41,919 nucleotides of DNA from a virus: positions 1-41,919 of the IMG/VR virus record IMGVR_UViG_3300047332_000051. The stretch is one strand, 5' to 3'. The notes under the pieces are model-generated. The model was not told the DNA's origin. It did not search any database and saw only the letters and a list, made by a program, of their open reading frames with translations. Below, piece by piece: positions 13,988 to 28,391 of this stretch. How positions within the stretch are numbered: position 1 is the first letter of the stretch; every line of letters begins with the position of its first letter. The translations under genes and the position numbers were made by a program.

Positions 13988-14164
13988 ATGCGCAGCGTTT
14001 TCGACACGCCCGGCACGAAGCCGGGGACCGACAAGGCCGTCAAGCTGCACCAGGCCGCGGCCCAGGGCTACACAGTCGGTGCAGACCCTTCCCGCGTCAA
14101 GGACGGCCCTCGCGGGTCGAAGACGGGCCGCACCCATGTTCCGGGTTGGACGCACCGGAAATAA
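13988..14164 (+). CDS. 58-residue basic protein
   Basis: A short gene starting at ATG 13988 with AAGGAG upstream, ending TAA 14162-14164. The product (MRSVFDTPGTKPGTDKAVKL..., ending VPGWTHRK) is basic and Gly/Pro-rich. Its conserved-looking coding bias and strong ribosome site support it. Third of three tandem small basic genes just before the gp10-like gene. Function unknown. Confidence 0.6.
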   Translation: MRSVFDTPGTKPGTDKAVKLHQAAAQGYTVGADPSRVKDGPRGSKTGRTHVPGWTHRK

Positions 14165-14170
14165 GAGGTT

Positions 14171-14204
14171 GAGGGGCGCGAGGCTGGACTACTTCGCGCC
14201 TCTC
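14171..14204 (+). promoter_or_regulatory. long hairpin in the leader of the gp10-like gene
   Basis: Bases 14171-14183 pair with 14192-14204 to form a 13-base-pair stem (with two G-U pairs) and an 8-base loop, ending 8 bases before the GGAGAG ribosome site (14213-14218) of the AUU-start gene. It is not followed by T's. It may insulate that ribosome site or act as an RNA processing site. Function is inferred. Confidence 0.5.
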
Positions 14205-14224
14205 AGCACCATGGAGAGACGCTT

Positions 14225-15631
14225 ATTCCCGATCTACCGCTCACGACGGGCAATTATGGCCGCCCCCGCGTAGGACTGCCGCCCGTCCGGCTGGTCAACG
14301 CCATTGTAGAGGCGTCTCAGGGCGGACCCTCCAAGGCCATACGCATTCCCAGGGCTGGAATGGATCTGGCCTACACGATCGGGACTGGGCCGATCTATCG
14401 CGAATTCCAGATCCAGGGCCTGTTTAACTCAGACCCATTTCACGTCTCGGGTGGGGAGCTGTATCGCGGCCAAACCGCGCTGGGTGGCGTGGCTTTCGGG
14501 ACTACGCCCCGCATGGCGGCGGCGAATGGATATTTGGCCATTGTCAATGGTGGAGGCCTGTTCGTCTATGACGGCACGACGCTTTCCCAGGTGCAATTTT
14601 TCGATGATGGCGTATCGCGCCTGCCAGCTTTCAGCTCGGTGGCGGTGCTCTACGATATCTTCATTTTTACGGTGCAGGGCTCGACGCAGTTTTTCTTCTC
14701 CGAGGTGGGAAACCCGACCGTCATCAACGCAGCCAATTTCTCCAATGCCCAAACCTCACCCGACCCGATCGTGGAAGTTGCGGTCCTGGCCGAAGAGCTG
14801 TATTTTTTCAAGGCCGCCAGGGCGGTAGAAATCTGGGACTACACCGGCCAGCTTACGGCCCCATTCGCCCTGTCGCAGGGACGCACCTATGCGCGCGGAT
14901 GTGGGGCGCAGAACTCGGTCCAGCTGCTGGACAATGGACTGTTCTGGGTCGGGGAGGACGCGACTGTCTATCGTTCTGGCTCCGTGCCCACCAGCATTAC
15001 CACGCCCTACATCGCCGATCGCCTGAAGGCGTGCGGCACGGCCCTGAGCCAGATCACGGCGCTGAACTACAATCTGGAAAACCACGTCCTGTACGTGCTG
15101 AACCTCACGCCGATTAACGAGAGCTATGCCTACGACTGCCAGACTAAGGAGTGGTCGGCCTGGGGGAGTCAGAATACCATCCAGGCGGAGCCGGCGGCCT
15201 ATCTGGCGGCATCGTCATGCGGCCAGGGGTCCACGATCTATTTCGGCTCGGCGCAGGATGGGCGGGTATGGACCGCAAACCCGTCTAGTCGCTTCGATGG
15301 AGATACGCCTATCCGCACGGTGGTGTCTGGAGCGATCTGGCTTGATGGAAACCGCATGCTTTGCGCCAACGTCATGCTGCAATGCTCGCGCGGCGTGGGC
15401 AATCCTGAGACGCCTAATCCGCTGATCCTGATGCGCTATAGCGACGATGAGGGCGACACGTGGTCATCCTGGCTTGAGCATAGCCTCGGGTCGCGCGGGC
15501 GCACCACGTACAAGGCGGTTTGGCGCGGCTTGGGCACGATGCAAAGTCCGGGTCGCCTGTTCGAGTTTGCCATCACTGATCCCGTGTCGTTCCGGGTGGA
15601 AAAGGCGACTTTCAACACGGCCTATCCATGA
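14225..15631 (+). CDS. gp10-like packaged-DNA stabilisation / tail hub protein, probable AUU start
   Basis: From AUU 14225 this is 468 residues, very close to P22 gp10 (472 residues), the tail hub that closes the portal after packaging. The first in-frame ATG is 14360 and would lose 45 residues, including a clearly coding stretch (PDLPLTTGNYGRPRVGLPP). No ATG, GTG or TTG lies in frame between TAA 14162 and 14360. GGAGAG at 14213-14218 sits six bases before AUU 14225. The body shows FNSDPFHVSGGELYRG, beta-propeller-like strands, and ATVYRSG/VLYVLNL segments typical of the family. Overlaps the tail fibre start (ATGA). The AUU start is inferred, not proven; CTG codons are possible alternatives. 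Confidence 0.75.
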   Translation: MPDLPLTTGNYGRPRVGLPPVRLVNAIVEASQGGPSKAIRIPRAGMDLAYTIGTGPIYREFQIQGLFNSDPFHVSGGELYRGQTALGGVAFGTTPRMAAANGYLAIVNGGGLFVYDGTTLSQVQFFDDGVSRLPAFSSVAVLYDIFIFTVQGSTQFFFSEVGNPTVINAANFSNAQTSPDPIVEVAVLAEELYFFKAARAVEIWDYTGQLTAPFALSQGRTYARGCGAQNSVQLLDNGLFWVGEDATVYRSGSVPTSITTPYIADRLKACGTALSQITALNYNLENHVLYVLNLTPINESYAYDCQTKEWSAWGSQNTIQAEPAAYLAASSCGQGSTIYFGSAQDGRVWTANPSSRFDGDTPIRTVVSGAIWLDGNRMLCANVMLQCSRGVGNPETPNPLILMRYSDDEGDTWSSWLEHSLGSRGRTTYKAVWRGLGTMQSPGRLFEFAITDPVSFRVEKATFNTAYP

Positions 15632-28360: not shown

Positions 28361-28391
28361 AGGCCCCCAGGAGCGATTCTGGGGGCCTTTT
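28361..28391 (+). terminator. rho-independent terminator ending the rightward late unit
   Basis: AGGCCCCCAG (28361-28370), 8-base loop, CTGGGGGCCT (28379-28388): a perfect 10-base-pair GC-rich stem with TTTT at its 3' side (28388-28391). It lies 24 bases after the last rightward stop and 21 bases before the end of the leftward gene block. It may block transcripts from both sides, but the T-run serves the rightward direction. Confidence 0.85.

Follow-up and report, generated by a model that had tools for sequence, protein, structure and literature searches.

The stretch of DNA analysed here (the window) is a virus record 41.9 kb long. Genes for a terminase, portal, head protein, tail hub and ejection protein are among those it contains; a search of the window for tRNA genes found none. 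At the locus of interest, all of whose features lie on the plus strand, an upstream ORF of 58 codons (13988..14164) is followed by an RNA hairpin, a Shine-Dalgarno (SD) sequence and the hub gene (14225..15631), which encodes 468 residues plus a stop when read from an AUU codon at 14225..14227. The sequence-only reading of this DNA had proposed this AUU as the start codon, pointing to GGAGAG six bases before it and to a product length near that of P22 gp10 (472 residues), and both particulars are borne out.

By full-length sequence match and by predicted fold, the encoded protein is a gp10-like tail hub (Hc3), also termed a packaged DNA stabilisation protein. It matches PHROG 578 (head closure Hc3) over residues 3-463 (E 1.8e-64) and, with the best E-value of the structure matches, the Pam1 needle head 7eeq over residues 4-465 (E 1.5e-57). 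It also matches Pan3 9vyg, and the solved Pam1 and Pan3 hubs are covered over residues 3/4-465. The score against Pfam PF11134, 24.8, is marginally under the 25-bit cut-off. An AlphaFold model of the protein (pLDDT 88) superposes on Pan3, Pam1 and P22 gp10 with TM scores of 0.84-0.88, including 0.88 for Pan3 9vyg and 0.86 for P22 8eap. Solved relatives of the hub are present in six copies per virion.

The start of the hub gene

As the sequence-only reading had noted, the hub frame contains no ATG, GTG or TTG between the TAA at 14162-14164 and the ATG at 14360..14362; this first standard in-frame start corresponds to Met46 and is internal to the conserved protein. The same reading held that a family N-terminal pattern continues upstream of this ATG, and the pattern is indeed real, running in frame down to codon 2. 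We compared the hub with 20 distinct related hub genes, 48-58% identical to it, and carried out an N-terminal codon comparison with the 11 that align there without gaps. In this alignment, which had been suggested as a check for a conserved AUU or a variant ATG, the codon matching AUU 14225 is ATG or GTG in 10 of the 11 relatives and ATT in one, here called L033. Proline at codon 2 is invariant in all 11, as are G12, R13, R15, P19, R22, N25, E29, G34, P35, R43 and G45, all of them upstream of Met46, and the codons ahead of AUU look random. Across the same 11 relatives, mismatch by codon position is 0.36/0.22/0.64 in codons 2-45 and 0.71/0.73/0.78 in the 60 nucleotides ahead of AUU; because the pattern changes at 14225, coding constraint begins there. 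Three marks of an AUU start thus coincide in the window: the lack of a usable standard start, a homologous start position and a suitably spaced SD. We consider it very probable that AUU 14225 is the real start of the hub gene.

The leader and its counterpart in a second AUU hub

L033, the relative with ATT at the homologous codon, is a phage-like contig assigned to a Mucilaginibacter MAG, and it came to light by homology alone. Its hub is 56% identical to that of the window, and its G+C content is 41% as against 61%. The L033 hub start reads AAAGGGGAGTATTTAAA-ATT-CCA-CCT-ATC, with AAGGGGAG 8 nt ahead of the AUU, and the first standard in-frame start is a TTG 17 codons into the gene. No ATG is found in any frame of the L033 leader near the start. 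The SD of this hub is the strongest among the 24 genes of the contig, and a UCCCCUU early in the coding sequence offers it an alternative pairing partner. Used as a single query, the L033 protein matched just one distant hub. The tree of hub genes is star-like and does not place the two AUU genes as sisters; a single origin of their AUU codons is not rejected (AU test p 0.44).

The two leaders share a layout. In the window, the stop codon of the upstream ORF, which is in the same frame as the hub, is followed by 3 nt, a 16-bp hairpin, 5 nt, the SD, 6 nt and AUU; in L033 the order is stop, 1 nt, a 12-bp hairpin, 5 nt, SD, 8 nt and AUU. By eye, comparable small upstream ORFs are present in three of the relatives (L001, L002 and L033). 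The window hairpin (14168..14207) has a continuous 16-bp stem with three G-U pairs and an 8-nt loop, a folding energy of -28.9 kcal/mol, and is the longest perfect stem of the whole window. A hairpin here had been predicted earlier and is present, but its dimensions differ from those first given: 13 bp at 14171-14204, eight bases before the SD, becomes 16 bp ending 5 nt before it. The folding z of the leader is -6.5 in the window (against dinucleotide shuffles) and -6.4 in L033, and the two hairpins have no sequence in common. A reading of the window hairpin as a terminator was rejected, as it has no T run and a terminator scan reported none.

The SD itself (GGAGAG, 14213..14218; anti-SD energy -6.4 kcal/mol, 6-nt spacer) is strong by the standards of this family. 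Including a pair of records with a candidate AUC start (L024 and L025, described below), the SD energies of AUU and AUC hubs are -6.4, -8.2 and -11.7 kcal/mol, whereas those of standard-start hubs are mostly weak, with a median of -1.7; the difference has an exact p of 0.005 with the AUC case and 0.03 for the two AUU hubs alone, both post hoc. Perfect stems of at least 11 bp at -60..-5 occur in 3 of 386 genes when the first start is taken and in 7 of 375 when any plausible start is allowed. Both AUU hubs are among the genes with such stems (P 3e-4 by the generous count). Since L033 was found through homology alone, we take the chance of its also having such a stem as ~0.5-1.6%. All of these SD and hairpin statistics were computed after the pattern had been noticed, and most relatives of the hub do without the combination of AUU and hairpin.

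The leader also contains an out-of-frame ORF of 20 codons (14211..14273) that begins at ATG 14211 and overlaps the SD and AUU. It is not supported as functional, and no counterpart of its ATG was found in L033. Overlapping the hub SD, this ORF might compete with the hub gene for ribosomes binding at that site.

Noncanonical starts in related phages and alternative explanations

To place the hub among other genes of these phages, we used as a control 18 related records with 371 genes that have a homologue in another record. Homology extends well beyond the first standard start in 16 of the 371, and by inspection four of these look like noncanonical starts: the two AUU hubs, a CUG gene in record G002 and an AUC gene in record G013. 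The remaining flagged genes appear to be cases of overlap with the gene before them, frames on the antisense strand or isolated weak matches. The CUG gene (L104:15447, IMGVR 3300035696_000126) has ~155 codons and a CTG start with AGGAGG 5 nt before it (SD -10.2), and its homologues carry TTG or ATG at that codon. The AUC gene (L127:4616, IMGVR 3300047576_000013) encodes an ejection protein and has ATC-CCA where homologues have ATG/GTG-CCN; there is no standard start within the first 146 codons of its frame, and its SD energy is -5.3.

These genes bear on the strongest alternative, that AUU is the real start but is merely tolerated under a strong SD through drift, with no regulatory role and an incidental hairpin. 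Noncanonical starts backed by an SD do arise in other genes of these phages, at ~0.5% of non-hub genes (2 of 354). Against this reading, 2 of the 17 hubs have them (Fisher p 0.011; excluding the window, whose AUU was the reason for selecting it, gives 0.12), and the hairpins are associated with the AUU hubs, whereas neither the CUG nor the AUC gene has an upstream stem of at least 11 bp. We regard drift as a possible account, if a somewhat doubtful one.

A second alternative is that the true codon at 14225 is ATG, altered by one substitution in the assembly of one metagenome. Metagenome assemblies do have single-base errors, and in most relatives this codon is ATG. No relative of the hub more than 58% identical was found, so that the window AUU rests on one assembly; phage records searched with the region by megablast gave no match, and a 17-mer taken from around the SD and AUU had one exact match, in an unrelated contig. 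Yet AUU stands at the same codon in the independent L033, together with a matching leader layout, which makes a single sequencing error unlikely. In addition, the related records L024 and L025, identical to each other over 6416 nt, have AUC at this position (L024/L025:2501) where their relative L036 has ATG. In these two records AGGGAGG lies 5 nt before the ATC and 14 nt before the next ATG, three codons on, which leaves AUC as a candidate start; a pattern search for ATH at the hub start among viral contigs matched these two records alone. The sequence-only reading had itself named a frameshift or sequencing error as the alternative to an AUU start. With relatives starting exactly here and L033 carrying AUU at this codon, such explanations are unlikely, and we judge an error at 14225 improbable.

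Production of the hub by stop readthrough, bypass or frameshifting from the upstream gene, or by initiation at ATG 14211 and a -1 shift, is more improbable still. The upstream ORF is in the hub frame, the hairpin comes right after its stop, and ATG 14211 lies slightly upstream of AUU, but nothing ahead of AUU is conserved, and L033 has a different upstream gene, a leader without ATG, and a second in-frame stop (TAA 2483) ahead of the hub, which excludes readthrough for the L033 hub; frameshift schemes are likewise excluded in that contig. Equally remote is a start at ATG 14360, which as the first standard in-frame start would leave the hub short of 45 residues: conservation over residues 2-45 equals that of the remainder (22-28 of 44 identical), this segment matches the solved hubs of Pam1 and Pan3, and the model has its first two strands there.

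A possible role for the leader and comparison with known AUU starts

Returning to AUU 14225 as the start, we propose that the hub would be translated from this codon by the fMet initiator tRNA, with a good SD at 6 nt making a weak AUU usable. Since the third base of AUU would pair poorly with the initiator anticodon and IF3 would discriminate against AUU, hub output is expected to lie well below the AUG level. The hairpin ends 17-19 nt before AUU, close to where a start-bound 30S subunit is expected to reach on the upstream side. In this position it should not block initiation and should hinder reinitiation from the upstream gene, and it would uncouple hub initiation from ribosomes finishing that gene. 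The outcome would be a low, steady hub output, fitting the copy number of solved relatives. We think it likely that AUU is the hub start and that it reduces output; that low output is the purpose of the AUU start, a suggestion in agreement with published AUU starts, may or may not hold with about equal plausibility, and insulation by the hairpin is put forward tentatively. We infer the use of AUU in vivo, and any sensitivity to IF3.

AUU starts are known from several systems. In E. coli, infC (IF3 autoregulation) and pcnB (low expression) likewise retain AUU on an important gene, although these are host genes, and the control of infC by its own product is inapplicable to a virion hub protein. 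In S. aureus, cvfC1 starts with AUU and ccpN with AUA, and AUU gave ~10% of AUG output in reporters (PMC13009471). As in the hub, these noncanonical starts are paired with a strong SD, which in cvfC1 and ccpN is extended; they differ in being bacterial genes, and the part of that source consulted reports no hairpin. P22 gp10, the Pam1 needle head and the Pan3 stabilisation protein share the family and fold of the hub, but the Pam1 and Pan3 genes align with an ATG start, and no AUU was seen in them.

The closest parallel is terS of Streptococcus phage TP-J34, which has an AUU start, AAGGAGGTggatgtATT, that was resequenced by its authors (PMC3952083). Like the hub, terS is a phage morphogenesis gene with a strong SD (AAGGAGGT, 6 nt) and a hairpin, of 12 bp, upstream. 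The AUU, the SD and this hairpin are kept in six Brussowvirus records (TP-J34, O1205, Sfi11, CHPC1084, SW15 and P7951), and the start region is conserved even where the coding sequence afterwards diverges. However, terS is a different gene in a different phage group, and the hairpin upstream of it, which carries a T-rich tail and an annotation as terminator, is more distant from the start codon. With AUU starts already known in E. coli, S. aureus and TP-J34 terS, the class is a known one and the hub is a further member of it; what is new is the link of a hairpin with the AUU start. It is a more speculative idea, and in our estimate an unlikely one, that a hairpin after the upstream stop, a good SD and AUU constitute a recurring phage leader dedicated to the control of low-number virion assembly genes, one that has arisen more than once (in two hubs and in Brussowvirus terS) and responds to IF3 or initiation capacity during infection.

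Gene finders as a rule accept only ATG, GTG and TTG, so genes with AUU starts will be truncated or lost in viral metagenomes. The hub AUU, backed by homology, by another, independent instance and by a hairpin common to both, offers a concrete leader in which to study how phages set the levels of low-copy virion parts. Some of the Brussowvirus records (L137:678, L138-L142) annotate terS as shorter or with an incomplete start. Elsewhere in the window, a G+C-rich 12-bp hairpin followed by TTTGCGTCTT (28361-28388) is terminator-like.
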